Assembly (NCBI RefSeq): GCF_025717005.1
Contig: NZ_JAOVZU010000004.1
Span: forward strand, 1 to 64,000
DNA: 64,000 nt
Origin: Actinotalea endophytica
GTDB lineage: Bacteria > Actinomycetota > Actinomycetes > Actinomycetales > Cellulomonadaceae
Direction of reading: 5' to 3'
Shown: one piece after another, positions 7,874-62,120 of the stretch
Layout of the letters: each line of letters begins with the position of its first letter
How positions within the stretch are numbered: the first letter of the stretch is position 1
Made by a program: the position numbers and the translations under genes
The notes under the pieces: generated by a model
What the model was told of the DNA's origin: nothing
What the model saw: only the letters and a program-made list of their open reading frames with translations
Database searches by the model: none

Positions 7874-9264
7874 GACGTCTCCGCACTCTCGAGGATCCGG
7901 GTGAGCACCTGCAGGAACCGGGCGCCGGGCGCGCCGTCGATCAGCTGGTGGTCGAGCGTGAGCGACAGCGAGATCCGGTCGGCGAACTCGACGTTGCCGT
8001 CGGCGTTGCGCACCGCGCGGAGCGTGATCGCGCCCACGCCGAGGATCCCGACCTGTGGCGGGTTGAGCACGGGCGTGAACCCCTCGATCCCCAGGTTGCC
8101 GAGGTTCGAGATCGTGAACGTGCCGCCCGTCATGTCGTCGGGGTTCAGCGTGCCTGCCTGGGCCTGGGCGGCGAGCTCCTTGCCGCGCGCCGACAGGCCG
8201 ATCAGCGAGAGGTTCTGCGCCCCGCGGATCACCGGCACGACCAGCCCCCGGTCGGTGTCGGCGGCGAAGCCCAGGTCGATCTCGGCGTGGGTCTGCACCT
8301 CACCGTCGAGCAACCAGGAGTTCACCACCGGCATCTCGCGCAGCGCCTTGACCGTGCACGCGCCGACGATGTCGTTGATCGTGATGCCCGCCGTGCTCGG
8401 GTCCTTCTTGAGCGTCCGGCGCAGGGCGAGGATGCTGCGCGCGTCCGCCGACGCGTGCAGGGTGTACTGCGCGGTGCTCGCCAGCGAGTCGCGCAGGTTC
8501 GCGGCGATCCGCTTGCGCATCGTCGACATCCTCTGGACCGAGGCGCCGGGCGCGGCCGGGGCCGGGACAGCGCCGCCGGTCGGCGCAGCCGTCGCGGGGG
8601 CCGCGCCGGGCGCCACCAGGTCGCCGGCCCGCACTGCTCCGCCCACGCCGGTGCCGGTGGCCGGAGCCACCAGACCCTCGGCGGCAGCCTGCGCCTGAGC
8701 GGCCGACGTCAGCTTGGGACCGGACTCCCACCGGTCACGTGCGTCGGCCTCGAGCACCCGCCCCTCGGGGCCGCTGCCCGGGGCTCCGGCGGTCTCCATG
8801 CCGTGCTCGCGGGCGAAGCGTCGGGCGCGCGGGCTCCACGGGGCGCCGGAGTCCTCGACCGGGACCGCGGCGGGCGCCGGCGCCCCGGCCGGGGCCGCTG
8901 CGGGCGCCGCAGCCGCCGGAGCCGCGGCCGGAGCCGCCACGGGCGCAGCGGGGCTCGACTCGGCGGGCGCGCTCGGCGCCGCCGCTCCACCCTCGCCGCC
9001 GGGCCGGTACGGCTCCGGGTCCTCCCCCGGGTCGCCCAGCACGCACAGCGTGGTGAAGACGGGCACCAGGTCACCCTCGGTGAAGAACGTCGCCAGCAGC
9101 GTGCCGGCCTGGGGCGCGGTCACCTCGAACGTCGCCTTGTCGGTCTCGACCTCGGCGAGCACGTCGCCCTCGGCGACCGCGTCACCTGGGCTCTTGAACC
9201 ACGCCGAGATGATGCACTCCTCGACCGTGTTGCCGAGCTTCGGCAGCTCCACGGGTACGGCCAT
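7861..9264 (-). CDS. 2-oxoacid dehydrogenase dihydrolipoyl acyltransferase (E2)
   Basis: The protein has 467 residues. An N-terminal lipoyl domain (residues 1-80) has the ETDKA motif with the lipoylated lysine near 43. A long Ala/Pro-rich hinge follows (about 85-135), then a peripheral-subunit-binding domain (about 138-175, WSPRARRFAREHG) and a C-terminal acyltransferase domain with the active-site DHQLIDG (about 438-444). A second Ala/Pro linker lies near 185-240. It is the core of the complex and passes the acyl group from E1 to CoA. It is the first gene of the operon, preceded by GGAGGG, with its promoter and an inverted-repeat operator about 130-190 bases upstream. There is a single lipoyl domain; acyl specificity is not determinable. 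Confidence 0.93.
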   Translation of the reverse strand: MAVPVELPKLGNTVEECIISAWFKSPGDAVAEGDVLAEVETDKATFEVTAPQAGTLLATFFTEGDLVPVFTTLCVLGDPGEDPEPYRPGGEGGAAAPSAPAESSPAAPVAAPAAAPAAAAPAAAPAGAPAPAAVPVEDSGAPWSPRARRFAREHGMETAGAPGSGPEGRVLEADARDRWESGPKLTSAAQAQAAAEGLVAPATGTGVGGAVRAGDLVAPGAAPATAAPTGGAVPAPAAPGASVQRMSTMRKRIAANLRDSLASTAQYTLHASADARSILALRRTLKKDPSTAGITINDIVGACTVKALREMPVVNSWLLDGEVQTHAEIDLGFAADTDRGLVVPVIRGAQNLSLIGLSARGKELAAQAQAGTLNPDDMTGGTFTISNLGNLGIEGFTPVLNPPQVGILGVGAITLRAVRNADGNVEFADRISLSLTLDHQLIDGAPGARFLQVLTRILESAETSCSI

Positions 9265-9390
9265 CGGTCAGCATCCCTCCGCCTCGTCGCCGAGCAGCGC
9301 CTGCTCGGCGTCCACGTTTCCGGATCTCGCTGCGCCCACCTCGGCCACCTCGCCGAGAGGACTGGAGCAGGCACTCCGCGATCCATTGTC

Positions 9391-9453
9391 GCTCGGATGA
9401 GCGCTATGCCCTCATCTGAGCAAAAGTCTGCTGTGCCGGTTCCGACGTGTCAA
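9391..9453 (-). promoter_or_regulatory. E2-E3-E1 promoter with 11-bp inverted-repeat operator
   Basis: Read on the minus strand, TTGACA (9448-9453) and CAGACT (9425-9430) are 17 bases apart. Immediately downstream lies an inverted repeat with arms of 11 (9391-9401 and 9411-9421), matching at 10 of 11 positions and separated by 9 bases, covering the likely transcription start. It is a good candidate site for the SorC regulator encoded just upstream. Confidence 0.55.
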
Positions 9454-9534
9454 GGGACGACACGAGCAGAACGGCTGGTCACTCGTCAGGTGCACCGGGT
9501 GCGTGCCGCCCGGCCGGTGCGATGGTCGGTGCGC

Positions 9535-10500
9535 TCAGCGCTCCGCCATCGTCAGCAGCTGACGCGCGCTGATCTCGTCGGTGACGAGGCGGTGGACGAC
9601 GCCGCTGCGCAGCGCCGCCGCGATGGCCTCCGCCTTGCCTGCCCCGCCGGCGACGGCGATGACGTCCGGCACTCGGCGCAGGCACTCGAGGTCGATGGCG
9701 ATGATGCGGCTCCCGAGCTCCGGCAGGTCCACCACGGCGCCGTCCTGGTCCAGGAGGGTCATGCAGACGTCTGCCACGGCACCGGCGGCCCCCGCACGCT
9801 CGATGACGTCTCGCGGCAGCGCGGGGTGCAGAGCGAAGCTCCCGGCCCGCCACGCACCGATGCCGACGACCGCATGGGTGAGCTTGTCGAACATCGCGAA
9901 GGTCTTCCGCACGTGCCGCTCCTTGCGCAGCGCCTCCGCGGCGACCGGGCTGTCGAGCAGCATCGGCACGTGCAACGGGTAGGCACGCCCCCCGCCACGT
10001 TCCGCGACCTGCCGCACCAGCTCCAACGCACTGATCGTGAGGTCGGCCGGGACGCCGCCGACGATCTGGACCACGTCGCAGCGCGGGAGGTCGTCGATGG
10101 CTCCGATCATCGCGTGCAGGGTGCGCCCCCAGCTGACGCCGACGATGTCACCTGCCTCCAGCGAGCCGGCGAGCAGCGCGGCGGCGGCTCGGCCCAGCTG
10201 GATGCGGACGAAGTCCTCGGTGTCCTCGGCGATGCGGACGACCAGGGCCTGGCGGATGCCGAACGCGGTCGTGAGCTGAGCCGACAGCTCGAGGTCGATC
10301 TCGCTCGGGGCCGCGATGGTGATCCTGACGATGCCCGTGCGGAGGGCGGTCTCGAGCATGCGAGAGACCTTGAAGCGTGACAGGCCCAGCTCGGCGGCGA
10401 TGTCGCTCTTGCTCACGCCGTCGACGTAGAAGCGTCGGGCCGCGAGCACGGTCGACACGGTGTCGAGACTCGGACCATGAGCCCTGGCTGGGGCAGACAC
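9535..10500 (-). CDS. SorC/DeoR-family sugar-binding transcriptional regulator
   Basis: The protein has 321 residues. An N-terminal helix-turn-helix (about 20-60, SKSDIAAELGLSRFKVSRML) is followed by the SorC sugar-binding domain (about 70-315), with the conserved GVSWGRTL and VVQIVGG segments that bind phosphorylated sugars. The GTG start at 10500 was preferred over an upstream in-frame start because GGAGG lies 6 bases before it and the extra 36 residues look non-coding. It lies directly upstream of the E2-E3-E1 operon in the same direction, and an inverted-repeat operator sits between them, so it probably controls that operon. It could also serve the aldolase/dehydrogenase genes upstream. 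Confidence 0.85.
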   Translation of the reverse strand: MSAPARAHGPSLDTVSTVLAARRFYVDGVSKSDIAAELGLSRFKVSRMLETALRTGIVRITIAAPSEIDLELSAQLTTAFGIRQALVVRIAEDTEDFVRIQLGRAAAALLAGSLEAGDIVGVSWGRTLHAMIGAIDDLPRCDVVQIVGGVPADLTISALELVRQVAERGGGRAYPLHVPMLLDSPVAAEALRKERHVRKTFAMFDKLTHAVVGIGAWRAGSFALHPALPRDVIERAGAAGAVADVCMTLLDQDGAVVDLPELGSRIIAIDLECLRRVPDVIAVAGGAGKAEAIAAALRSGVVHRLVTDEISARQLLTMAER

Positions 10501-50910: not shown

Positions 50911-52092
50911 TCAGGCGCCGGCGGTCGACCTCTCGCGGGCCAGTGCGTAGAAGAACAGCGCGACCGGCCGGTACATGGCGTGCGCGAACTTGGTGAACGG
51001 CAGCATGAGCATCAGCTCCATCGCCACCGCGACGTGCACCAGGAAGACCCAGTAGCCCCACGCCGGCGGCGCCGACATGTAGAGCGCGACCTCGATCACG
51101 AACCCGGTGAACCCGGTGATCCACAGCAGGCTCAGGAACAGCCAGTCGGACCCCTTCGAGTCGGCCTGCGCGGTGGACCACTTCTTCCACCGGCCGATCA
51201 TGAACACCGTCACGCCGTACATCAACGACAGGCCCGCGACCGTGCCGAGCGCGCGCGACGGGTACCACAGCGGGATCGGCGTCCCGGTCTCCTTGATGCC
51301 CAGCAGCTCGAGCCCGTAGTCGATCAACGTCGCGCCGAACAGGCCGAGGAAGCCCCAGATGGTCAGCGCGTGGACCAGCCAGCGCCGCCGCCACAGCGGC
51401 TCGACCTCCTGGTCGTCGTGGCAGTCATCCCGGAACCGCTTCTGGCCGAGCGACTCGATGCCGAGCGAGTCCCACACTGCGCCGAGCGTGCGCTTCCACG
51501 CGGCGCCCGAGCCGACGGTGTCCTTGAGCGTCACGCCGTCGCGCTTGCCGATCGCGCGGACCATCCGGACCACGCCCCAGGCACCGGCCAGGAACATCGC
51601 CGCCATGACCACGATGCCGAGCCAGTGGACGACGTCGTTCGGCACGAAGTCGAACAGCGCGAGCTCCGGCGCGTCGATCCCGCCGAGGTCGGCCTGGGTC
51701 AGCATGAAGGTCGCGAAGAACGCCGCGACGAGCACCGCGATCACGGTGCCGATCACCGGCTTGGTGTAGAGCACGCGGGCCAGGCCGGTCGGCTCGTAGG
51801 ACGCGATCGCGTACCGGCGGGCCGCGGCCATGAACTCACCGGGGTCGGCCTGCGTCGGGCAGGAGTCCGAGCACAGCCCGCAGTGGTAGCAGGTCCACAG
51901 CTCCTTGGAGCCGAGCAGCTCGTCGGTGAGCCCGACCTGCGCGTACCGGATCACGCGGCGCGGGAAGGTCGCGTCGTTGTCCGACAGCGGGCAGATCGCG
52001 GTGCAGTTGCCGCAGGAGAAGCACGCGTTGACGTCGGCGGCCCCGAACTTCTGCAGGTCACCCATCAGGTCGATGTTGACGACCGTGGCCAT
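50911..52092 (-). CDS. QmoC-like membrane protein: HdrC-type ferredoxin fused to HdrE/NarI-type cytochrome b
   Basis: The protein has 393 residues. The N-terminal part carries two [4Fe-4S] motifs, CFSCGNCTAICP (about 24-35) and CYHCGLCSDSCP (about 68-79). The C-terminal part has about five to six membrane helices with histidines suited to b-type haem binding (VVHWLGIVVM, LVHALTIWGF, FLVHVAVAMEL, KFAHAM). This HdrC-HdrE fusion is the architecture of QmoC, which passes electrons between a soluble Hdr-like complex and menaquinone. It is the last gene of the seven-gene operon. The start at 52092 follows AAGGGAG, just downstream of the small upstream gene. Confidence 0.88.
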   Translation of the reverse strand: MATVVNIDLMGDLQKFGAADVNACFSCGNCTAICPLSDNDATFPRRVIRYAQVGLTDELLGSKELWTCYHCGLCSDSCPTQADPGEFMAAARRYAIASYEPTGLARVLYTKPVIGTVIAVLVAAFFATFMLTQADLGGIDAPELALFDFVPNDVVHWLGIVVMAAMFLAGAWGVVRMVRAIGKRDGVTLKDTVGSGAAWKRTLGAVWDSLGIESLGQKRFRDDCHDDQEVEPLWRRRWLVHALTIWGFLGLFGATLIDYGLELLGIKETGTPIPLWYPSRALGTVAGLSLMYGVTVFMIGRWKKWSTAQADSKGSDWLFLSLLWITGFTGFVIEVALYMSAPPAWGYWVFLVHVAVAMELMLMLPFTKFAHAMYRPVALFFYALARERSTAGA

Positions 52093-52093
52093 G

Positions 52094-52360
52094 TCACGCT
52101 CCCTTTCCTGGCAGGCCGTACGGGAAGTAGCCCTCGTCGTCGTCATCGGGGAACTCGACCAGGTGGCCGTAGCGACGCATCCCCATCACCCAGTACAGGA
52201 CCTCCTCGGCCGGGTGGCCGATCGCCTGCGCGAGGTCGGGCACGGTGAGCGGACCGTCGGCCAGGGCGGCCTTGATCACCCCGTGCATCGTCATCTCCTC
52301 GCGGATGACCTCGCGCGGGTCACGCAGCGCGTGGCCCGTCGGGCTCGTCGTGGTGCTCAT
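52094..52360 (-). CDS. Small winged-helix-like protein of the Hdr operon
   Basis: The protein has 88 residues. TMHGVIKAALADGPLTVPDL and AIGHPAEEVLYWVMGMRRYG resemble a winged-helix fold without obvious DNA-binding basic patches, and the tail is acidic and aromatic (DDDDEGYFPYGLPGK). It overlaps the HdrA-like gene upstream by four bases and ends one base before the QmoC-like start, so it is translated with the complex. It may be an accessory subunit rather than a regulator. No known name is recognised. Confidence 0.75.
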   Translation of the reverse strand: MSTTTSPTGHALRDPREVIREEMTMHGVIKAALADGPLTVPDLAQAIGHPAEEVLYWVMGMRRYGHLVEFPDDDDEGYFPYGLPGKGA

Positions 52361-54111
52361 GCCACCGGCTCCTTCTCGGGGGCGACGACCAGGCCGTCGA
52401 TCGCCGCCATCATCTGCGCGTGGGTGTAGCCGAGCAGGTCGATCGCGTCCTCGGGGCAGACCGGCGCACAGCCGCCGCAGCCCTTGCAGCTCGCCGCGCT
52501 GATCGTGGCCTTCTCGCCCTCGTCGCACACGTACGACGTGATCGCGTCGTACGGGCAGGTCGTCAGGCACTCGCCGCACCCCGTGCACATGCTCTCCGTG
52601 ACGGTGGCCACCAGTGGGTCGAGCTCGGCGAAACCCTTCTTCAGGATGCCCGCGGACTGCGTGACGGCCGCCAGGCCGCCGCTGATCGCCTCGGTCGCCG
52701 GCTTCGGCCCCTGGCAGGCGCCCGCGATCAGCACGCCGTCCACCACGGTCTCCACCGGCCGCAGCTTGGGGTGGATCTCGTTGTAGAAGCCGTCGTCGCC
52801 GGTCGGCAGCTTGAGCAGGGTGGTCAGGTCGTCGTTGTCGCGCGGGACCATCCCGGTGACCAGGACGACCAGGTCCACCGGCAGGGTGAGCGGTTCCGGC
52901 GACGTCAGCGCGTCGGTCACGGTCACGGCGAGCCGCTTGTCCGGCAGCTGCTCGATCGACGGCGGGGCGTCGTCCGGGTACCGCATGTAGACCGAGCCGC
53001 GCTCGCGGGACTCGGTGTACATCAGCTCGTACTTGCCGTAGGCCCGCACGTCGCGGTGCAGGTGGAACTGCCGGATCGACGGGTCGAGGTCGGAGACCTT
53101 GATCGACGCGTGCACCGTGGCCGCGCAGCAGAACTTCGAGCAGTACTCGTTGCCGCCGAGCTGCCGGTTGCCCACGCAGTACACGTACGCGACCGAACGG
53201 ACCTTGCGGCCCTGCCAGGCGAGCGTCCCGCTGCCCTTGGCCGCGTCGACCAGCGTGCCGAACTCGTGGATCGTCACGACGCCGTCGATGCCGTAGCCGA
53301 GCTCGCCGGCCTCGGGCGCATAGACGTCCGCACCGGTCGCGATGACGAACGTGCCGACCTGGTACTGCCGGAGCTCCTCGGTCTGCTCGGTGCGCAGCCG
53401 GACCTTGGCGGTGTAGTTGCCGAACGACCCGGCCTTGCCGACCAGCTCGGCGTTGGTGAGCACCGTGATGGTCGGGCGCGCGGCGACCTGGGCCAGCAGC
53501 TCGGCGATCTGCTCACGGCCCGGCTTGTCGCGGGGGAACATCGGGCCGAGCTTGCCGACCCAGCCGCCCAGCTCGGCCTCACGCTCGACGATCGTCACCG
53601 CGACGCCGATGTCGGCCAGGCCGATCGCGGTGCGCAGCCCGGTGATCCCGCCGCCGACCACCATCGTGGCGGGCACGGTCTCGACGCGCAGCGGCTCGAG
53701 CGGCAGGGACAGCCGGGTCTTCGCGATGCCCGCCTGGACCAGCGCGATGGCCTTCTGGGTCGCACCGTCGTGGTCGTCGGTGTGCGCCCACGAGTCCTGC
53801 TCGCGGATGTTCACCTGCGTGTAGGCGTACGGGTTCAGGTCGGCCCGCGCCGACACGCCCCGGAACGTCGTGGTGTGCAGCTTGGGCGAGCAGGACGCGA
53901 CGACCAGGCCGTCCAGGTGCTCGCCCTGGATGTCGTCGATCATCTCGTGCTGCGTGCCGTCGGCGCAGGCGAAGAGCGTGGTCTTGCCGACCACGACGTC
54001 CGGGTCGGCCGAGATGGCCTCGCGGACCTTCTCGACGTCCACGTAGTCGGAGATGTTGCCGCCGCAGTGGCAGATGTACACCCCGATGCGGCGCTTCGAG
54101 CTCTCGCTCAT
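52357..54111 (-). CDS. HdrA-like iron-sulfur flavoprotein (QmoA/HdrA family)
   Basis: The protein has 584 residues. It starts with the HdrA N-terminal cysteine motif VYICHCGGNISDYVDV, and CSPKLHTTTF near residue 79. FAD binding is shown by VVGGGITGLRTAIGLADIG (about 150-170). Central YCVGNRQLGG...CSKFCC is the HdrA-type cluster or flavin site. The C-terminal ferredoxin domain has CTGCGECLTTCP and CKGCGGCAPVCP. It would be a core electron-transfer subunit of a soluble Hdr/Qmo-like complex. The start at 54111 overlaps the 912-residue flavoprotein gene by four bases. Confidence 0.9.
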   Translation of the reverse strand: MSESSKRRIGVYICHCGGNISDYVDVEKVREAISADPDVVVGKTTLFACADGTQHEMIDDIQGEHLDGLVVASCSPKLHTTTFRGVSARADLNPYAYTQVNIREQDSWAHTDDHDGATQKAIALVQAGIAKTRLSLPLEPLRVETVPATMVVGGGITGLRTAIGLADIGVAVTIVEREAELGGWVGKLGPMFPRDKPGREQIAELLAQVAARPTITVLTNAELVGKAGSFGNYTAKVRLRTEQTEELRQYQVGTFVIATGADVYAPEAGELGYGIDGVVTIHEFGTLVDAAKGSGTLAWQGRKVRSVAYVYCVGNRQLGGNEYCSKFCCAATVHASIKVSDLDPSIRQFHLHRDVRAYGKYELMYTESRERGSVYMRYPDDAPPSIEQLPDKRLAVTVTDALTSPEPLTLPVDLVVLVTGMVPRDNDDLTTLLKLPTGDDGFYNEIHPKLRPVETVVDGVLIAGACQGPKPATEAISGGLAAVTQSAGILKKGFAELDPLVATVTESMCTGCGECLTTCPYDAITSYVCDEGEKATISAASCKGCGGCAPVCPEDAIDLLGYTHAQMMAAIDGLVVAPEKEPVA

Positions 54112-56846
54112 GCCAGCACCTCCGCTTCCTGCGTGACCGCCGCGCGCTCGAGGTGAGCGGCGACCTGGGCGACCGCGGCACCGGCGTGCACGATCGTGTC
54201 GACGATGTCCTTGGCGCCGGAGGCCGTCCCGGCGACGAACACGCCGGGGATGTCGGTGACGCCGGGGTCGACGTCCTCGCTCGGTTCGGCGACGTAGAAG
54301 TACTCGTCGAGTCCGAGCTGCTCGTCGGTGAAGAGCCGTTCGACGTCCCGGTTGGGCTGGATGCCCACCGCGAGGACCACGAGGTCGTACTCCGCCTCGA
54401 CGATCTCGCCGGTCCCCTCGGTGTCCTCGTAGCGCAGCACGAGGTCGCCGTTCTCCTTCTCGGTGACCTTCGAGACCCGGCCGCGGATGTACTGCGCGCC
54501 CATGTCCTTGGCCTGCTCGTAGAACTCGTCGTAGCGCTTCCCGGCGGCCCGCATGTCCATGTAGTGCATGGTCACGTCGGCCAGCGGCAGGGCTCCCATG
54601 ATCAGCTGGTTCTGCTTGATCGAGTACATGCAGCAGACCTTCGAGCACAGCGGGTTGCCCACCTGCGCGTCGCGCGATCCCGTGCAGGAGATGTACGCGA
54701 TCCGCTCGGGCACCTTGCCGTCACCGGGCCGCAGCACCGTGTTGAACGGTCGGGTCGGCGCCAGCAGCCGGTCCATCTGCATACCCGTGATGACGTTGGC
54801 GTACCTGCCCCAGCCGTACTCGGGCTTGTTGTCCGCCGCGAACAGCTTGTAGCCCGTGGAGACGACCACCGCGCCCACCTCGACCTCGGTCTCGACGTCG
54901 CGCTTGTCCATCCGGATCGCGTCCGCCGGGCAGGCGTGCACACACTCCTGGCACTCCGAGCAGACCCCGCAGTCCAGGCAGCTGCCCGCCCCGGAGCGGG
55001 CCTCGGCCTCGCTCAGCGGCGACTCGATCTCGTGGAAGTCCCGCGGGAGCGCGGCCAGGTCGACCGCACCCTTGATCGGGTTCCGGTGACCGAACGCGGT
55101 CTGCCGGGACAGCACCTGGTCGTGCGTGACCGTGTCGATCCGGTCGTCCAGCGCGGTGAAGCCGGTCATCGGCTGGTCGTTGACCCAGCGGTCGACCATG
55201 TGGGCGGCGCGCCGCCCGGCGCCGATCGCCCGCGTGATGTCGGTCGCGCCGGTCGCGACGTCCCCGGCGGCGAACAGGTACGGGACCTCGGTCTGCAGGG
55301 TGTGCGGGTCGACCGTGATCCGCTGCCCGCGGCCGACCGTCACGACGTTCTCGTACAGGGTCGCGTCCGGGCTCATCCCGATGGTGGAGATCACCAGGTC
55401 GCAGTCGACGGTGGTCTCGGCTCCCGGGACCGGCTCGGGGCTGCGGCGGCCGGAGGCGTCCGGCGCGCCGAGCTGCATCTTCTGCAGGCGGACGCCGGTG
55501 ACCGTGCCGTCGGCCGCGAGCACCTCGAGCGGGGTGACCAGGAACTCGAACTGTGCGCCCTCGGCCTCGGCGTCGTCGGCCTCGACGTGGTGCGCCGGCA
55601 TCTCGGCGCGCGTGCGGCGGTAGACGACCTTGACGTCGGCCGCGCCGAGGCGCAGCGAGACGCGCGCGGCGTCCATCGCGACGTTGCCGCCGCCGACCAC
55701 GACGACCCGCTTGCCGGTCAGGTCCGGTGCCTTGTCGTTCGCCACGTCGGCGAGGAAGTCCAGACCGTTGACCGACCCGGCGGCGTCCTCGTTCGGCACG
55801 TCCATCGGCGTCGCGTTCTGGGTGCCGGTGGCCACCACGACGGCGTCGTAGCCCTCGGCCTTGAGCGCCGCGAGGTCGTCGATCTTCGCGTCGCACTCGA
55901 TCTGGACGCCGATCGAGGTGAGGTTCGCGATGTCCGCGTCCACGACCTCGTGCGGCAGGCGGTAGGACGGGATCGCGTGGCGCAGGAACCCGCCGGGCTG
56001 CGAGCGCTTCTCGAAGACCTTGACCTGGTAGCCCTGGCGCGCGAGCTGCCACGCCGCGGTCAGGCCCGCGGGGCCGGAACCGACCACGGCGACCTTCTTG
56101 CCGTTCGGCGCGGCCACCTCGACGGCCGGCCCGGACGGGGTGGCGCCGTTCGCCGCGTAGTGCTGGTCGGCGGCGAACCGCTTGATCAGCCGGATCGGCA
56201 CCGGGCCCTCGAGCTTGGTGCGGGTGCACTCGGACTCGCAGGGCGCGTAGCAGGCCCGCCCGAGGGTGCCGACCAGCGGGGTGGCGTCCAGGACCAGCTG
56301 GAAGGCCTCCTCGTCCTTGCCGGACCGGACGAGCGAGACGTAGCCGTGCGCCTTGATGCCGGCCGGGCAGGCGCCGATGCACGGCGACGTGCCCTCGCGG
56401 TCGAGCACGGCCTTCTTGGGCACGGCCTGCGGGAAGGCGATGTACGCGGCCCGGCGCGCGGCGAGGTCGGAGTTGAACTCGTCGGGGACCGCAACGGTGC
56501 ACGCCATCTGGCAGTCGCTGCACCCGGTGCACGCGGCCCAGTCGACGAACGTCGACTTCTCCTTGACGGTCGCGGTGAAGCGTCCGTCCGCACCGCGCTT
56601 GATCCCCGTCACCTCGGAGTACGTCTTCGTGGTGATGTTCGGGTGGTTGATCGTCGAGGACATCTTCGGGCCGGAGATGCAGCTCGCGCAGTCGAGGGTC
56701 GGGAAGACCTTGGACAGCAGGATCATCCGCCCGCCGACACTCGCCTCCTTCTCGACCAGCAGCACCTTGTAGCCCATGTCGCCGAGCTTGATCGACGACT
56801 CCATGCCGCCGATCCCGCTCCCGATCACGAGGACGTCGTAGTCCAT
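54108..56846 (-). CDS. Large HdrA-like flavoprotein with inserted GltD/NfnB-type NAD(P)H module
   Basis: The protein has 912 residues. The N-terminal HdrA FAD fold (VIGSGIGGMESSIKLGDMG, then FPTLDCASCISGPKM) leads to a CTGCSDCQMAC cluster. A module of about 430 residues like the glutamate synthase small subunit follows: CIGACPAGIKAH and CYAPCESECTR clusters, KVAVVGSGPAGLTAAWQLA (FAD) and KRVVVVGGGNVAMDAARVSL (NAD(P)H). Then comes a ferredoxin segment CLDCGVCSECQECVHACP and the returning HdrA half (ISCTGSRDAQVGNPLCSKVC). It could join NAD(P)H chemistry to the Hdr/Qmo-like core, perhaps by flavin-based bifurcation or confurcation. It is 54 bases from the DsrE2-like gene. Confidence 0.9.
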   Translation of the reverse strand: MDYDVLVIGSGIGGMESSIKLGDMGYKVLLVEKEASVGGRMILLSKVFPTLDCASCISGPKMSSTINHPNITTKTYSEVTGIKRGADGRFTATVKEKSTFVDWAACTGCSDCQMACTVAVPDEFNSDLAARRAAYIAFPQAVPKKAVLDREGTSPCIGACPAGIKAHGYVSLVRSGKDEEAFQLVLDATPLVGTLGRACYAPCESECTRTKLEGPVPIRLIKRFAADQHYAANGATPSGPAVEVAAPNGKKVAVVGSGPAGLTAAWQLARQGYQVKVFEKRSQPGGFLRHAIPSYRLPHEVVDADIANLTSIGVQIECDAKIDDLAALKAEGYDAVVVATGTQNATPMDVPNEDAAGSVNGLDFLADVANDKAPDLTGKRVVVVGGGNVAMDAARVSLRLGAADVKVVYRRTRAEMPAHHVEADDAEAEGAQFEFLVTPLEVLAADGTVTGVRLQKMQLGAPDASGRRSPEPVPGAETTVDCDLVISTIGMSPDATLYENVVTVGRGQRITVDPHTLQTEVPYLFAAGDVATGATDITRAIGAGRRAAHMVDRWVNDQPMTGFTALDDRIDTVTHDQVLSRQTAFGHRNPIKGAVDLAALPRDFHEIESPLSEAEARSGAGSCLDCGVCSECQECVHACPADAIRMDKRDVETEVEVGAVVVSTGYKLFAADNKPEYGWGRYANVITGMQMDRLLAPTRPFNTVLRPGDGKVPERIAYISCTGSRDAQVGNPLCSKVCCMYSIKQNQLIMGALPLADVTMHYMDMRAAGKRYDEFYEQAKDMGAQYIRGRVSKVTEKENGDLVLRYEDTEGTGEIVEAEYDLVVLAVGIQPNRDVERLFTDEQLGLDEYFYVAEPSEDVDPGVTDIPGVFVAGTASGAKDIVDTIVHAGAAVAQVAAHLERAAVTQEAEVLA

Positions 56847-56901
56847 CAGTGACTCCTGCTCCTTCTGGTCGCGCCGCCAGGGCGTGCCGGATGACGTGCG
56901 T

Positions 56902-57381
56902 CTAGATGAAGAGGTTGACGTTCGACTCGTCGGCCTCGCCGAGGTACGAGGCGACGCCCGCGTACTCGATGTCGTCGAGGAGCTCTTCCTTGGTCAGGCC
57001 CATGACGTCCATCGACATCGTGCACGCGATGAACTTCACGCCCTGCTCGCGCGCGGTCTCGATGAGCTCGGGCAGCGACATGACGTTCTGCGCCTTCATC
57101 TCGCGCTGCATGAGCTTGGGACCCATGCCGGCGAAGTTCATCTTCGACATCGCGAGCTTCTTCGGGCCGCGCGGCATCATCGCGCCGAACATCTTCTGCA
57201 CGAACGTCTTGTCCGGCGCCGCCACGGGCGAGTCCTTGCGGATCGCGTTCAGGCCCCAGAACGTGAAGAACATGACGACCTCGTCGTCCATCGCCGCCGC
57301 GCCGTTGGCGATGATGAACGCGGCCATCACCTTGTCGAAATCACCGCTGAACACGATGATCGTCTTCTTGGTCGACTCCAC
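56902..57381 (-). CDS. DsrE2-like sulfur-transfer protein
   Basis: The protein has 159 residues. KTIIVFSGDFDKVMAAFIIA at the start and FFTFWGLNAIRKD resemble the DsrE/DsrE2 (DrsE-F-H) superfamily, and VKFIACTMSMDVMG carries the single conserved cysteine expected to bear a persulfide. It has a hydrophobic first strand-helix region but no clear membrane anchor. The GTG start at 57381 was chosen because the fold starts there and GAAGGGA precedes it. In sulfur oxidisers, DsrE2 accepts sulfur for or from TusA; here both are in one operon with Hdr-like flavoproteins. Confidence 0.85.
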   Translation of the reverse strand: MESTKKTIIVFSGDFDKVMAAFIIANGAAAMDDEVVMFFTFWGLNAIRKDSPVAAPDKTFVQKMFGAMMPRGPKKLAMSKMNFAGMGPKLMQREMKAQNVMSLPELIETAREQGVKFIACTMSMDVMGLTKEELLDDIEYAGVASYLGEADESNVNLFI

Positions 57382-57416
57382 CTCGAGTGTCCCTTCCCAG
57401 TCGGTCGTGGTGCGGT

Positions 57417-57848
57417 TCAGCCGACCGGCACGGGCTTGGGCCCGAGCTGGACGAGGGCGGCCGAGAACTCCCGCATGTAGTTGGCGAACGGCTCCGCGCA
57501 GACCGAGCAGACGGCGGCCATCTTGAGCCGCTGCGGCTCCAGGCCCTTCTCGGCCATCAGCTCCTGCGCACGCGTGACGATGTGCGCGGTGCGCTCGGCG
57601 CAGTCCGGCAGGTAGGCGCACTCCTCGCCGTCGGAGGCGATGAACACACCGTCCTGGCCGTTCTCGAGAGCCCGCACGATCCAGGCCGGCTTGATGCCGC
57701 TCGAGCAGGGCACGGCGAGCACGGAGACCGTCGCCGGGTAGTGCAGGTGCCGGCTCCCGGCGAGGTCGATGCCCGGGTCGGAGATGTTGTTCGTGGAGAA
57801 CACCAGGATCCGGGGCATCGGCTCGCCGGAGCCGTCGTGGTCGCTCAT
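57417..57848 (-). CDS. MvhD-type iron-sulfur electron carrier (hydrogenase delta subunit family)
   Basis: The protein has 143 residues. VLAVPCSSGIKPAWIVRALE, the GQDGVFIASDGEECAYLPDC segment and AAVCSVCAEPFANYM follow the MvhD/FrhD pattern with cysteines for a [2Fe-2S] cluster. In methanogens MvhD links hydrogenase to HdrA. No hydrogenase genes are in this window, so here it probably links the Hdr-like flavoproteins to another donor. The start at 57848 lies 7 bases after the TusA gene. It ends 35 bases before the DsrE2-like start. Confidence 0.85.
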   Translation of the reverse strand: MSDHDGSGEPMPRILVFSTNNISDPGIDLAGSRHLHYPATVSVLAVPCSSGIKPAWIVRALENGQDGVFIASDGEECAYLPDCAERTAHIVTRAQELMAEKGLEPQRLKMAAVCSVCAEPFANYMREFSAALVQLGPKPVPVG

Positions 57849-57855
57849 CCGCAGG

Positions 57856-58113
57856 TCACTTCATCTTCATGAAGAGGCGCAGGTAGCCGGCGTCCTCGTA
57901 GTGGCCCAGGTACTCGTGACCCATCTTCTTGGCCCAGGCCGGCAGGTCCTTGAGGGTGCCGGAGTCGGTCGCGAGGACCTCCATGACGGCGCCGGAGGCC
58001 ACGCCCCGGACGGCCTTCTTCGCGGCCAGGATCGGGCCGGGGCACGAGGTGCCACGGGCGTCGACGACGACGGTGTTCGTGAGGGCCTTGAGCTCCTCGG
58101 CTGCGGCGGTCAT
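57856..58113 (-). CDS. TusA-family sulfur carrier protein
   Basis: The protein has 85 residues. VVDARGTSCPGPILAAKKAV holds the active-site CPGP motif (Cys near 24), and EVLATDSGTLKDLPAWAKK is the typical second half. It carries sulfur as a persulfide on the cysteine. It is the first gene of the operon TusA-MvhD-DsrE2-HdrA/GltD-HdrA-small protein-QmoC, with GGGAGGGG before the start. The regulatory region upstream has CstR-like and Crp-like sites. Confidence 0.92.
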   Translation of the reverse strand: MTAAAEELKALTNTVVVDARGTSCPGPILAAKKAVRGVASGAVMEVLATDSGTLKDLPAWAKKMGHEYLGHYEDAGYLRLFMKMK

Positions 58114-58311
58114 GAGTCCCCTCCCAGGGTGCTGTGGTGGTGCAGGAGAGCCGTCGCCCCGGTGGACGACGGACGCAGGTGGGGGGCGCGCACGACAGCA
58201 CGGGAGGCAGCCTCGACACGGCTGCTCCGGGGACCCGTCATCGGGCCTGGTGTGATCGCCACGGCCTCAGCGTCGAACCGCGGGCGCACGGGACCGGGGG
58301 TCCTACGTCCC

Positions 58312-58325
58312 TACCCCCGGGGGTA
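58312..58325. promoter_or_regulatory. CstR/CsoR-like operator 1
   Basis: TACCCCCGGGGGTA is a perfect 14-bp palindrome matching the A-T-A-C-C-C-(C)...G-G-G-T-A-T style of sites bound by CsoR-family persulfide or copper sensors. No CsoR/CstR gene lies in the window. Confidence 0.55.
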
Positions 58326-58328
58326 TTT

Positions 58329-58376: not shown

Positions 58377-58392
58377 ATACCCCCGCCGGTAT
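58377..58392. promoter_or_regulatory. CstR/CsoR-like operator 2
   Basis: ATACCCCCGCCGGTAT is an imperfect palindrome sharing ATACC/GGTAT ends with operator 1. The centres of the two sites are about 66 bases apart. Confidence 0.45.
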
Positions 58393-58450
58393 CCGTGACA
58401 TTGGTCCGAGAGGGTGGCTCGGGAGGCCGCGCGGACGGCGGCGTCTCCAG

Positions 58451-58545
58451 GCGTCAGCACGGCACACGCGAGGCGTCAGGACGGCACACGCGAGGCGTCA
58501 GGACGGCACACGCGAGGCGTCAGGATTGCCTGCGAGGCGTCAGGA
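58451..58545. repeat. 22-base tandem repeat reaching the end of the second TusA gene
   Basis: Three 22-base units start at 58451, 58473 and 58495 (unit GCGTCAGGACGGCACACGCGAG; the first differs at one base). A shortened 20-base variant follows (58517-58536), then a partial unit (58537-58545) containing the stop codon of the cysteine-less TusA gene. A partial unit may also precede at 58441. Confidence 0.85.
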
Positions 58546-58800
58546 GAGCCGGCGCACGAACAGGTGCAGGTCGCCGCCGTCCTCGTAGGCGCCGAGGTAC
58601 TCGTGCCCCACCTTCGCGCTCCACGACGGCACCTCGGCGAGGGTCGTCGGGTCGGTCGCGAGCAGCTGCAGGACGCCGCCCACCTTCGCCTCGCCGATCG
58701 ACTTCTTCACCGCGAGCACCGGACCCGGCCGGCGCCGCCCTCTGGCGTCCACCACGAGGTCACAGGTCAAGGACTTCAGCGTTGTCACGCCACCGGACAT
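58540..58800 (-). CDS. TusA-like protein lacking the active-site cysteine
   Basis: The protein has 86 residues, clearly homologous to the TusA protein at 57856-58113 (shared DARG...PGP, ATD, GHEYLG, YED and LF positions). In the catalytic motif the cysteine is replaced: VVDARGRRRPGPVLAVKKSI has Arg-Pro-Gly-Pro instead of Cys-Pro-Gly-Pro, and its only other Cys is near residue 13. It cannot carry sulfur in the usual way and may be a decoy, a binding partner or a decaying duplicate. GGGGAGG precedes the start. Its stop codon lies in the tandem repeats. Confidence 0.85.
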   Translation of the reverse strand: MSGGVTTLKSLTCDLVVDARGRRRPGPVLAVKKSIGEAKVGGVLQLLATDPTTLAEVPSWSAKVGHEYLGAYEDGGDLHLFVRRLS

Positions 58801-59013: not shown

Positions 59014-59027
59014 GTGACGTGCGTCAC
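59014..59027. promoter_or_regulatory. Palindrome upstream of the metallophosphoesterase gene
   Basis: GTGACG-TG-CGTCAC is a perfect 14-bp palindrome, and with flanking bases reads CGTGA-N6-TCACA, one base off the Crp consensus. It lies 27 bases before the start codon, in the divergent region 58801-59054 shared with the second TusA-like gene. Confidence 0.45.
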
Positions 59028-59054
59028 AATCGAGCGTCGACCCCGGGAGCCCCC

Positions 59055-62000
59055 ATGGACCGTCGGATCCTCGCAGCAGCCCTCCTCGCGGTGGCGACGA
59101 TCGCACCCGCGGCCCTCGCAGGTCCGGTGGCCACCGCCGTCGGCGACGAACCCGAGGTGCACTTCACGGCGGCCGGCGACTACGCCGCCGGGAGCAACGC
59201 GCAGGCCGTGTTCGCCACGATCGGCGGCCTCGCACCCGACTTCAACCTCGCCCTGGGCGACCTCTCGTACGGCACCACGGGCGCCGAGCAGGCCTGGTGC
59301 GACCTGGTCACCGCCGGGGTCGGTGCCGGCTTCCCGTTCGAGCTCATCGCGGGCAACCACGAGTCGAACGGCCTGAACGGCAACATCAACGACTTCTCCG
59401 CATGCCTGCCGAACCAGCTCCCCGGGCTGATCGGCACCTACGGCCGTCAGTGGTACGTCGACGTGCCGGCCGGCGACCCGCTGGTCCGGGTGGTCGCGAT
59501 CTCGCCCGCCCTGACGTTCCCGGACGGGACCTGGCAGTACACCGCCGGGAGCCCCCGGTACGAGTGGACCGCCGCGGCGATCGACGGAGCCCGCAGCTCC
59601 GGCATCCCGTGGGTCGTCGTGGCGCTGCACAAGCCGTGCCTCTCGCTCGGCGAGTACGCCTGCGACCCGGGCCCCGACCTGAACCAGCTCCTGCTCACCA
59701 AGCGCGTCGACCTCGTGCTCACCGGGCACGAGCACCTCTACCAGCGCACCGCGCAGCTCGCGCTCGGCACCGGGTGCACGACGCTGACCCCGGGCGTCGA
59801 GGCCGACCCCGACTGCATCGCCGACGCCGACGACGACCTGGTCAAGGGCGCCGGAACGGTGTTCGCCACGGTCGGGACCGGCGGCCAGGTCCAGCGGGCG
59901 GTGCACACCGACGACCCGGAGATCGGGTACTTCGTCGCAGCGTCCGGCTCGGCCGACCCCACCTGGGGCGCCCTCGACGTCCGGGCGACCGCGACCAGCC
60001 TCACCGCGTCCTTCGCCCGCGCGTCCGGCAGCTCGTTCACCGACGGCTTCACGATCACCGCGGGCGGGCCCGCGACCAACCAGCCACCCCTCGCCGCCTT
60101 CTCGACGGCGACGTCCGGGCTCACCGCGACGCTCGACGCGACCGCGTCGTCGGACCTCGACGGCACCGTCGTGGCCTGGGACTGGGACTTCGGCGACGGG
60201 ACCACCGGCACCGGCGAGACCACCACCCACGAGTACGCGACCGGCGGCACCTACACCGTCCAGCTCACCGTCACCGACGACGACGACGCGACCGCCACCA
60301 CCAGCCACGACGTCACGGTCGTCGACCCCGGCACCGCGCTCGCCCTGGACACCTTCACCCGCACCGTGACCGACGGCTGGGGCACCGCCGACCTCGGCGG
60401 ACCCTGGTCGACCTCCGGCACGTCGTCCCGCTTCGCCGTGACCGGCTCGACCGGCACGTGGTCGATGGCACCGGGCGCGTCCGTCGCGTCCTGGCAGACC
60501 GGTGTGTCGTCCGCCTCGACCGAGGTGCAGCTCACCCTCGCCACCGACCTGGTCCCGGCAGGCAGTGGCGCCTGGGTCCACGTGCAGGGCCGCCGTGTCT
60601 CGGCAGCCGAGTTCTACGGGGCCCGGCTGCGGTACTACCCCGACGGCACCGTGGCGCTGCAGATGACCCGCGGCAACGGCACCGTGGTCGCCGGGGGCTT
60701 CGTGCCCGGCCTGACCGTGGCCGCCGGCGACCGGCTGCGGATCCGGCTCCAGGTGGAGGGCACCGGTCCGACGGTGGAGCGCGCCAAGGTGTGGAAGCTC
60801 GGCGAGAGCGAGCCCGCCGGGTGGTTCAGCGAGTTCAGCGACGCCACGGCCGGGCTGCAGGTCCCCGGCGGGGTGGGCCTGTCCGCGTACGCGACCAGCA
60901 GCGCCGGCCCGGCGTTCACCCTCTCCGTGGACGACTGGTGGGCCGGCCCGGTCGGCGCCGTCCCCGGCGGCAACCTGGCGCCGGTCGCGGCGTTCACCGC
61001 GACGCCGGACGGTCTGTCCGTGGGCCTGGACGGCACCGCCTCCGCCGATCCCGACGGCACCGTCGTGGCCTGGGACTGGGACTTCGGCGACGGGACCACC
61101 GGCACCGGCGAGACCACCACCCACGAGTACGCAACCGGCGGCACCTACACCGTCCAGCTCACCGTCACCGACGACGGTGGTGCCACCGGCTCGACGGCCG
61201 TCGACGTCACGGTGTTCGACCCGACGGTGAACCAGCCGCCGGCCGCCGCCTTCACCGCGTCGGTCACCGGCCTGGGCGTGTCCCTCGACGGCACGACGTC
61301 GACCGACCCGGACGGCACGGTCGTGGCCTGGGACTGGGACTTCGGCGACGGGACCACCGGCACCGGCGAGACCACCACCCACGAGTACGCCGCCGGCGGC
61401 ACCTACACCGTCGAGCTCACCGTCACCGACGACGACGACGCGACCGCCACCACCAGCCAGGACGTCACGGTCGTCGACCCCGGCGCCGCGCTCGCCCTGG
61501 ACACCTTCACCCGCACCGTGACCGACGGCTGGGGCACCGCCGACCTCGGCGGACCCTGGTCGACCTCCGGGGCGGCAAGCGTCTACTCGGTGTCGGGCGG
61601 CGAGGGCCGGATCCTGCTGCCGAGCGGTGGCTCGGGGCCGGACGTGTCCCTGCCCGGGTCGGCGACGGCGAGCACGGACCTGGTCGTCACGCTGGGTTCC
61701 GACAAGGTCCCCGGCGGCTCGGGGCTCTACACCGCGATCGCGCCCCGGCGGACCGCGGCCGGCGAGTACCGGGTGCGCCTGCAGATCCGCAGCAACGGTG
61801 CGGTCCAGCTCGGCCTCGCCCGCGTCGAGGGCTCGGAGACGGCGATCGTGCCGGTGGCGACCGTGCCGGGGCTGACCTTCACGGCCGGCGACCGGCTCGT
61901 CGTCCGGGTGCAGGCCTCGGGCACCAACCCGACGCTCCTGCGGGCGAAGGTCTGGTCGGCCGCGAGCGCCGAGCCGGCGGCGTGGCTGGCGTCCGCGACT

Positions 62001-62120
62001 GACACGACCGCGGCGCTGCAGACGTCCGGCTACGTCGGCATCAACAACTACCTGTCGAGCAGCGCGACGAACACGCCGATCGTGCTCAGCGTCGACGACC
62101 TCGCCGTCCGGCTGCCCTGA
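59055..62120 (+). CDS. Secreted metallophosphoesterase with three PKD domains
   Basis: The protein has 1021 residues. The signal peptide (RILAAALLAVATIAPAALA) is cleaved near residue 20. The metallophosphatase domain (about 28-320) has all motifs: AAGDYAAG, ALGDLSYG, AGNHESNG, VALHKPC and LTGHEHLYQR, as in purple acid phosphatase relatives. Then follow PKD 1 (about 338-425), a beta-sandwich (427-635), PKD 2 (638-720), PKD 3 (723-808) and a second beta-sandwich (812-1021) beginning like the first (ALALDTFTRTVTDGWG). It probably releases phosphate from organic phosphates outside the cell, with PKD domains as spacers or binders. There is no cell-wall sorting signal at the C-terminus. GGGAG precedes the start. 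Confidence 0.9.
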   Translation: MDRRILAAALLAVATIAPAALAGPVATAVGDEPEVHFTAAGDYAAGSNAQAVFATIGGLAPDFNLALGDLSYGTTGAEQAWCDLVTAGVGAGFPFELIAGNHESNGLNGNINDFSACLPNQLPGLIGTYGRQWYVDVPAGDPLVRVVAISPALTFPDGTWQYTAGSPRYEWTAAAIDGARSSGIPWVVVALHKPCLSLGEYACDPGPDLNQLLLTKRVDLVLTGHEHLYQRTAQLALGTGCTTLTPGVEADPDCIADADDDLVKGAGTVFATVGTGGQVQRAVHTDDPEIGYFVAASGSADPTWGALDVRATATSLTASFARASGSSFTDGFTITAGGPATNQPPLAAFSTATSGLTATLDATASSDLDGTVVAWDWDFGDGTTGTGETTTHEYATGGTYTVQLTVTDDDDATATTSHDVTVVDPGTALALDTFTRTVTDGWGTADLGGPWSTSGTSSRFAVTGSTGTWSMAPGASVASWQTGVSSASTEVQLTLATDLVPAGSGAWVHVQGRRVSAAEFYGARLRYYPDGTVALQMTRGNGTVVAGGFVPGLTVAAGDRLRIRLQVEGTGPTVERAKVWKLGESEPAGWFSEFSDATAGLQVPGGVGLSAYATSSAGPAFTLSVDDWWAGPVGAVPGGNLAPVAAFTATPDGLSVGLDGTASADPDGTVVAWDWDFGDGTTGTGETTTHEYATGGTYTVQLTVTDDGGATGSTAVDVTVFDPTVNQPPAAAFTASVTGLGVSLDGTTSTDPDGTVVAWDWDFGDGTTGTGETTTHEYAAGGTYTVELTVTDDDDATATTSQDVTVVDPGAALALDTFTRTVTDGWGTADLGGPWSTSGAASVYSVSGGEGRILLPSGGSGPDVSLPGSATASTDLVVTLGSDKVPGGSGLYTAIAPRRTAAGEYRVRLQIRSNGAVQLGLARVEGSETAIVPVATVPGLTFTAGDRLVVRVQASGTNPTLLRAKVWSAASAEPAAWLASATDTTAALQTSGYVGINNYLSSSATNTPIVLSVDDLAVRLP
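60159..61571 (+). repeat. Near-identical PKD-encoding direct repeats
   Basis: A segment of about 120 bases recurs at about 60159, 61053 and 61311. From 60159 to 60419 and from 61311 to 61571 the identity runs on through the start of the following beta-sandwich, giving a direct repeat of about 261 bases offset by 1152 bases (384 codons, in frame). The synonymous sites are also nearly identical, indicating recent duplication or gene conversion. Confidence 0.85.

Follow-up and report, generated by a model that had tools for sequence, protein, structure and literature searches.

A 64,000-nt window of the 4.25-Mb genome of Actinotalea endophytica (GCF_025717005.1, contig NZ_JAOVZU010000004.1, positions 1 to 64,000), the whole stretch of DNA analyzed here, contains an operon of seven open reading frames (ORFs), all on the minus strand and running from 58113 to 50911. 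They encode a TusA-like sulfur carrier, an MvhD subunit, a DsrE2-like protein, a hybrid of HdrA and GltD, a second HdrA-like flavoprotein, a small winged-helix protein, and a QmoC-like fusion of HdrC and HdrE. Judged by its sequence, the operon is Qmo-like in make-up but not a canonical Qmo operon by descent. With about as much confidence as doubt, we posit that its products form a Qmo-type persulfide oxidoreductase that is fed by TusA and DsrE2, links NAD(P)H and menaquinone, is under CstR-like control, and has as its net reaction the reduction of persulfide to sulfide. We lean slightly toward the broader view that this operon and its relatives represent a widespread undescribed class of TusA-coupled Qmo/Hdr systems, either membrane-bound with QmoC (type A) or equipped with HdrC and HdrB (type B), that moves electrons among protein persulfide, NAD(P)H, and quinone. 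The class would be a regulated dissimilatory or homeostatic sulfane-sulfur route in several phyla, many of its members without dsrA or aprA, and possibly bifurcating.

The genes lie close together: 7 nt separate TusA from MvhD, 35 nt MvhD from DsrE2, and 55 nt DsrE2 from the hybrid, the hybrid/HdrA and HdrA/88-residue ORF pairs overlap by 4 nt each, and a 1-nt gap precedes the QmoC-like gene. The seven tightly packed genes of the original prediction are borne out by ORF coordinates, overlaps and gaps, and their identities by Pfam and NCBIfam matches (Table 1). A promoter and terminator scan was uninformative, with one promoter-like site, which is intragenic (0.3 expected), and four terminator-like sites (2.1 expected).

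The gene set is conserved. Relatives were collected in a scan of genome contigs with an alignment of eight hybrids, from which we took the best 80 of at least 553 related loci; these were picked by similarity to the 912-residue protein only, and neighboring genes played no part in the selection. Together with two further loci (L064 and L065) they gave 82 loci, in which a gene was scored only where the contig reaches far enough. TusA and MvhD are each present in 79 of 79 scorable loci, HdrA in 75 of 75, and the winged-helix protein in 73 of 73; since the core five genes stand in every scorable locus, chance linkage is excluded. A DsrE-family gene of some type is found in 49 of 54. The end of the operon is of type A, the QmoC-like fusion, in 37 of 62 scorable loci and of type B, HdrC followed by a CCG-domain HdrB-like protein, in 25, with no locus having both endings or neither; PF02754 was found in both type B proteins tested. 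The scattering of these genes in relatives that the original prediction had named as evidence against itself was not seen in the loci examined. By similarity of the hybrid, the closest relatives among the matches listed are an Actinomycetales metagenome-assembled genome (95%), Actinotalea lenta (94%), and Cellulomonas sp. 73-92 (86%), and the loci listed include carriers in Actinomycetota, Chloroflexi, Bacillota (including Desulfotruncus, Desulfofundulus, and Desulfallas), Acidobacteria, Deltaproteobacteria, Armatimonadetes, Aminicenantes, LCP-89, Zixibacteria, and Dormibacterota. The distribution is patchy in the surroundings of the window, with a full-length hybrid in 4 of 59 genomes, A. endophytica included; of 396 Actinomycetota drawn evenly, 20 have a hybrid match at E ≤1e-120, and six of these, again with A. 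endophytica, reach at least 58% identity. None of seven more distant HdrA–GltD loci (37–47% identity; contigs of 8–20 kb) gave a TusA or DsrE2 match, so TusA linkage marks the hybrid's own clade, as far as seen. A second HdrA–GltD hybrid, of the distant type, is encoded in the genome of L056 (L056/L069), another lies within locus L132, and the hybrid of L040 (L040/L064) has one in-frame TGA.

Many Cys and His residues of these proteins are kept in their aligned homologs. TusA scores below the NF001423 equivalog cut-off (46.9 versus 78 bits), and the PF01206 domain and the CPGP (Cys-Pro) motif are present, with Cys24 kept in 81 of 81 aligned rows. The DsrE2 equivalog NF047629 was rejected (87.7 bits against a cut-off of 210), and the wider PF13686 model matches; C120 of the protein is kept in all 45 rows with an identity of 55% or more, and its best sequence match among solved structures is 3pnx. 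As families, TusA and DsrE2 carry sulfane sulfur. Five Cys of MvhD are kept in 82 of 82 rows and 21 Cys of the hybrid in 84 of 84. Pfam and NCBIfam models place GltD-type matches at residues 141–657 of the hybrid and HdrA matches at 622–908, and alignment with seven AprA-adjacent QmoA proteins of other carriers reveals a QmoA-length core split by ~470 GltD-type residues, from ~146 to 620. Both Rossmann motifs of the GltD module are mostly conserved. At the stretch of this module where the window has YRR, which in GltD is of the NADPH type, YRR is found in 47 of the 53 rows without a type B assignment and in 14 of 31 type B rows. The HdrA-like protein falls under the NF040770 cut-off of 1100 bits, and the QmoC-like protein under that of NF038018 (198.9 versus 300 bits). 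The latter retains 8 Cys in 43 of 43 full-length homologs and His156, His241, His353, and His371 in 38, 43, 42, and 42 of them, and because these residues are kept, the HdrC–HdrE fusion described in the original prediction is supported.

The 88-residue protein has no convincing family match in Pfam or NCBIfam. AlphaFold2 predicts a winged helix (mean predicted local distance difference test score of 87.5), in agreement with the winged-helix-like character assigned to it earlier; Foldseek relates the model to SmtB, MarR, and SqrR-like folds (best E 1.6e-3, none below 1e-3), and among PDB sequences the winged-helix profile has one match at E <0.001, a designed repeat protein (CAP REPEAT), along with weak matches to regulators. 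The profile finds a strong copy in all 31 carrier genomes searched (one in 30 and two in G461) and six weak matches (E 8e-5 to 6e-4) in five genomes. Homology to the sHdr hyp gene or to DsrD is a speculative idea, on which a literature search found nothing. The protein is probably a structural or allosteric subunit.

The two HdrA-like proteins, the MvhD module, and the HdrC–HdrE fusion together make up the subunit set of Qmo. In all seven AprA-linked loci, most of HdrA aligns with the front part of QmoB at 25–29% identity, and MvhD is 26–31% identical to the stretch of QmoB directly after its HdrA-like part; because the hybrid, HdrA, and MvhD match parts of QmoA and QmoB, we regard the operon as encoding the Qmo subunits, except that MvhD stands as a protein of its own and an NAD(P)H-type module is inserted. 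A tree of 49 rows, however, places the 15 hybrids in one group and their 15 HdrA partners in another, each with 100/100 support, whereas seven QmoA and seven QmoB proteins cluster together apart from both; five distant HdrA–GltD proteins do not form a single group. The label of a Qmo operon in the original prediction is therefore wrong by descent, the hybrid and HdrA clades lying outside QmoA/QmoB. Two HdrA-like flavoproteins, an MvhD module, and QmoC or HdrC are likewise found in the QmoABC that is canonical for sulfate reducers, segments of which are mostly 24–39% identical to proteins of the operon; the operon differs in the GltD insertion, the separate MvhD gene, and the linkage to TusA and DsrE2. 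We rejected canonical QmoABC on the score of QmoC, the separate clades, and the genome having no aprA match over the cut-off.

Table 1. Features of the operon and of its upstream region in the A. endophytica window
Feature	Position	Strand	Family match
TusA-like sulfur carrier, 85 aa, CPGP motif, Cys24	57856..58113	-	PF01206, 76.7 bits
MvhD/FlpD-type iron-sulfur subunit, 143 aa; matches C-terminal part of canonical QmoB	57417..57848	-	PF02662, 102 bits
DsrE2-like sulfurtransferase, 159 aa, GTG start, one kept Cys (C120)	56902..57381	-	PF13686 (DrsE_2), 215 bits
QmoA/HdrA-like flavoprotein, 912 aa, with inserted GltD (NAD(P)H/FAD) module, residues ~146-620	54108..56846	-	
HdrA-like flavoprotein, 584 aa, counterpart of QmoB front part	52357..54111	-	NF040770, 458 bits
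Winged-helix protein (predicted fold), 88 aa, without Cys, signature WVMGMRRYG	52094..52360	-	
QmoC-like HdrC-HdrE fusion, 393 aa; two [4Fe-4S] motifs and hydrophobic His-containing domain	50911..52092	-	
Second TusA paralog, active-site Cys replaced (RRRPGP)	58540..58800	-	
CsoR/CstR-type operator-like palindrome ATACCGGCGGGGGTAT	58377..58392	-	
CsoR/CstR-type operator-like palindrome ATACCCCCGGGGGTAG	58311..58326	-	

Two TACC-N6-GGTA-type palindromes, which we take to be of the CsoR/CstR operator type, lie 278 and 212 bp ahead of TusA. In 81 loci, counting the window, the 32.4 kb upstream of TusA contain 25 such sites, distributed over 20 loci, whereas 1,441 kb of other sequence contain 18; when the upstream regions are shuffled by mononucleotide, the average is 0.33 sites, and none of 1000 shuffles reaches 25. 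With upstream regions of 600 bp the counts are 24 and 19. Because the loose pattern is weak genome-wide, our tally for the A. endophytica genome was limited to 15 strong sites (TACCCN4GGGTA), with neighbors assigned by eye from ORF tables. Nine of these adjoin sulfur or thiol genes: the TusA operon, a rhodanese with a CstR-like gene, a CoADR-rhodanese, the rhodanese of an SQR–DsrC–DsrE cluster, an MBL-rhodanese (its probable start ~360 bp away), a sulfhydrogenase-type beta subunit (below the NCBIfam cut-off), two thioredoxins, and a glutaredoxin. Looser sites are found ~100 bp before SQR and before an 823-residue CoADR-rhodanese-TusA-DsrE fusion, Pyr_redox-rhodanese proteins being presumed here to be CoADR. 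The SQR cluster consists of consecutive genes for a type III SQR, a DsrC/TusE-like protein with a penultimate Cys, a DsrE-like protein, and a rhodanese (L162, contig C5 of the same genome, 387-3063, plus strand), with the loose palindrome before SQR and the strong one before the rhodanese. The Pyr_redox-rhodanese-TusA-DsrE fusion, with its operator-like palindrome in front, is encoded on contig C16 (L154, 4840-7311, plus strand), and the sulfhydrogenase-type gene, followed further on by a hydrogenase delta-like gene, stands behind a CstR-type palindrome on contig C2 (L160, 1-2455, minus strand).

The A. endophytica genome encodes two CsoR-family proteins. One has a C-H-C pattern, presumably that of a copper CsoR, and adjoins a gene that by eye is copper-ATPase-like. 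The other, CstR-like protein, encoded on contig C17 (168466-168678), has a C-x28-C pattern without the His and adjoins the palindrome-bearing rhodanese and CoADR-rhodanese genes; its spacing is that of C31 and C60 named for CstR in the available part of PMC5480029. A near-identical His-less C-x28-C protein is encoded directly after the QmoC-like gene in Cellulomonas sp. 73-92, two C-x28-C CsoR-type genes flank the operon in L078, and one does so in L117. The two features by which we would recognize a CstR regulon, operator-like palindromes and a His-less C-x28-C CsoR paralog, thus occur in the same genome. In the cst operon of Staphylococcus aureus, a persulfide-sensing CsoR paralog (CstR) controls cstA, cstB, and sqr, and the available part of PMC5480029 names no Qmo/Hdr complex among its genes.

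From the genes, their order, the domain architecture, the kept residues, and the shared palindromes, we infer that the proteins form a membrane-anchored Qmo-type flavin/iron–sulfur complex that would handle TusA-bound persulfide (sulfane sulfur) rather than AprAB, with DsrE2 as a putative sulfurtransferase. Electrons would pass between the sulfur site, MvhD, and the flavins and clusters carried by the QmoA-like and HdrA-like subunits; the QmoC-like subunit would, as a predicted haem b/menaquinone protein, connect them to menaquinone, and NAD(P)H would exchange electrons through the GltD module of the QmoA-like subunit. In type B systems HdrC and HdrB may take the place of the membrane part, as in QmoAB-HdrBC (PMC10504309, in part). 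A CstR-like persulfide sensor would repress the operon, which would consequently be made when persulfide accumulates, and rhodaneses, the CoADR-rhodanese, and the SQR cluster may be co-expressed under the same sensor. Most likely, the net reaction would be the clearance of TusA/DsrE2 persulfide to sulfide with NAD(P)H, menaquinone being the other redox partner. Judged by the redox potentials, NAD(P)H should reduce persulfide favorably, by a route that would need neither LbpA nor a sulfite-forming site. Oxidation with menaquinone as acceptor may also occur. The electron exchange among TusA/DsrE2, menaquinone, and NAD(P)H put forward in the original prediction is strengthened by the linkage, the kept Cys, and the operator-like sites common to sulfur genes.

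DsrA is over the cut-off in 13 of 50 carriers and AprA in 12 of 50; in the whole A. endophytica genome, DsrA, AprA (TIGR02061), and Sat have no match over the cut-off, AprB not having been searched for. No LbpA-like (GCV_H) gene lies near the operon in 31 carriers, in one of which it shares the operon contig at a distance of 400 kb (positions were compared by eye, and many contigs are short), and the sole GCV_H match in A. endophytica, with an LbpA-like fold, is on another contig; since these matches lie away from the operon, LbpA does not look like part of the system. HdrB (CCG) is absent from the operon here, and the CCG matches of the genome are two ORFs elsewhere. For AprA and Sat, the absence of partners from the window that was reported earlier extends, at that cut-off, to the genome; the earlier account is corrected by SQR and an MBL-rhodanese, present in the genome outside the window, and by the HdrB-like partner of type B relatives.

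Several observations weigh against reductive persulfide clearance under CstR-like control. No such palindrome is present in 61 of 81 upstream regions, and three of the 20 positive loci (L101, L103, and L105) are closely related. Five control palindromes gave 0 sites upstream and 125 elsewhere, a weak control because only ~2.8 upstream matches are expected in all, and in the A. endophytica genome the loose TACCN6GGTA pattern has 41 sites versus 29 for the reversed control. Six of the 15 strong sites have no obvious sulfur gene nearby, their neighbors being a CMD-family protein, a glutaminase, a flavodoxin, a weakly SQR-like flavoprotein and, by eye, an SDR and a truA-like gene. In five Bacillota loci, the CsoR-type proteins encoded next to the operon do not have the C-x28-C pattern, and the NCBIfam models nearest to the CstR-like proteins, copper RicR and formaldehyde FrmR, score far below cut-off. 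Instead or as well, no more than 1.2 kb separates TusA from an ArsR-family gene in at least 15 loci (a count of one ORF per locus gives 11, and four more were seen); one ArsR protein has a BigR-like score, below cut-off. Of 50 carriers, 20 have a match to type III SQR (8 over the cut-off), with A. lenta and Cellulomonas 73-92 not among them. As to chemistry, no result of the sequence analysis fixes the direction of electron flow, type A lacks the HdrB-type cluster to which the sulfur-reactive site might be assigned, and the TusA and DsrE carriers of published Hdr-like systems serve oxidation (PMC6067878, in part).

The same complex could run in reverse, oxidizing TusA/DsrE2 sulfane sulfur to sulfite or thiosulfonate and passing electrons to menaquinone and, in part by flavin-based bifurcation, to NAD(P)+, as an LbpA-independent cousin of sHdr. 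We consider this a tentative alternative, which would fit the membrane quinone-type subunit and the SQR cluster among the palindrome-bearing genes. TusA and DsrE feed oxidation in sHdr, and the type B order HdrA–small protein–HdrC–HdrB–DsrE resembles hdrC1B1A-hyp-hdrC2B2 (PMC6067878, in part). However, LbpA, which is essential in sHdr, is unlinked, type A has no HdrB, and neither Sat nor AprA has a match over the cut-off in A. endophytica. Considerably less probable is a biosynthetic sulfur relay, for thio-tRNA or cofactors, that has an electron donor of its own. Other bacteria use TusA and DsrE-type proteins in tRNA thiolation, but the patchy presence, the quinone-type subunit, and the stress-type operators are unlike a housekeeping role. 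We find it slightly more improbable still that the operon belongs to a copper (CsoR) regulon with an incidental link to sulfur. CsoR and CstR are paralogs (PMC5480029, in part), some flanking CsoR-type proteins retain the His, and NCBIfam points weakly to RicR; yet the genome has a separate C-H-C CsoR beside the copper-ATPase-like gene, the strong sites stand by rhodanese, CoADR, thioredoxin, and sulfhydrogenase-type genes, and the Cys of TusA and DsrE2 are kept in all rows. A Qmo complex serving adenosine 5'-phosphosulfate reductase, although in keeping with the subunit set and with AprA in 12 carriers, is scarcely credible given the 38 carriers without AprA over the cut-off, A. endophytica among them, the separate QmoAB beside AprA in all seven AprA-linked stretches looked at, and the position of the hybrid and HdrA outside QmoA/QmoB.

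A search of the open-access literature, with most subscription papers outside its reach, found no description of this gene set. The nearest is the "type II" Qmo of PMC10504309, of which QmoABC and QmoAB-HdrBC share HdrA-like QmoA and QmoB together with either QmoC or HdrBC, the latter form occurring in some sulfate reducers. In its available part, that paper ties no TusA, DsrE2, winged-helix gene, GltD insertion, or persulfide operator to type II Qmo; the operon is set apart by this description, and the two sets may overlap. HdrL of Desulfobacterium autotrophicum is likewise an HdrA-type protein with extra NADH/FAD-binding domains, with no TusA/DsrE2 operon reported for it in the available part of PMC12142623. 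sHdr (hdrC1B1A-hyp-hdrC2B2 with lbpA) also brings together HdrA, HdrC, a small protein, DsrE, and TusA (PMC6067878, in part); we rejected it for want of a linked LbpA and of an HdrB (CCG) subunit in the operon here, and the operon further differs from it in the GltD hybrid, the QmoC-like protein of type A, and the restriction of HdrB to type B. The published gene sets of YTD sulfur disproportionation, type II DsrEFH, and Sulfobacillus Hdr clusters, as far as available, differ from the operon and were also rejected; the literature consulted, in part, also includes PMC12998232, PMC4378227, and PMC13293266. If our proposal of a TusA-coupled class holds, the Qmo/Hdr enzymes would gain a persulfide-specific branch, and Qmo-like complexes without Apr or Dsr, whose role is left open in PMC10504309 (in part), would gain a role that can be tested; sugar-degrading actinobacteria, Chloroflexota, and others would join in sulfur-intermediate cycling. 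The TusA–MvhD–hybrid–HdrA–winged-helix signature is simple to annotate.

Counterparts of the second TusA paralog in L073 and L107 likewise have no Cys, and the paralog is kept in these three related genomes with a low ratio of nonsynonymous to synonymous substitution rates (dN/dS), ~0.22–0.26; it is possibly a decoy or a regulatory partner. In L112, one ORF (8812-9543, plus strand) runs from an ArsR-family protein directly into TusA, and because a single ORF covers both, the sulfur carrier of this locus may have a regulator fused to it. At and just past the end of the Cys-less TusA gene in the window lies a 22-bp tandem repeat of ~4.5 copies (58449-58545), and a long ORF at 59019-62120 on the plus strand is, by eye, metallophosphatase-like with PKD-type repeats.

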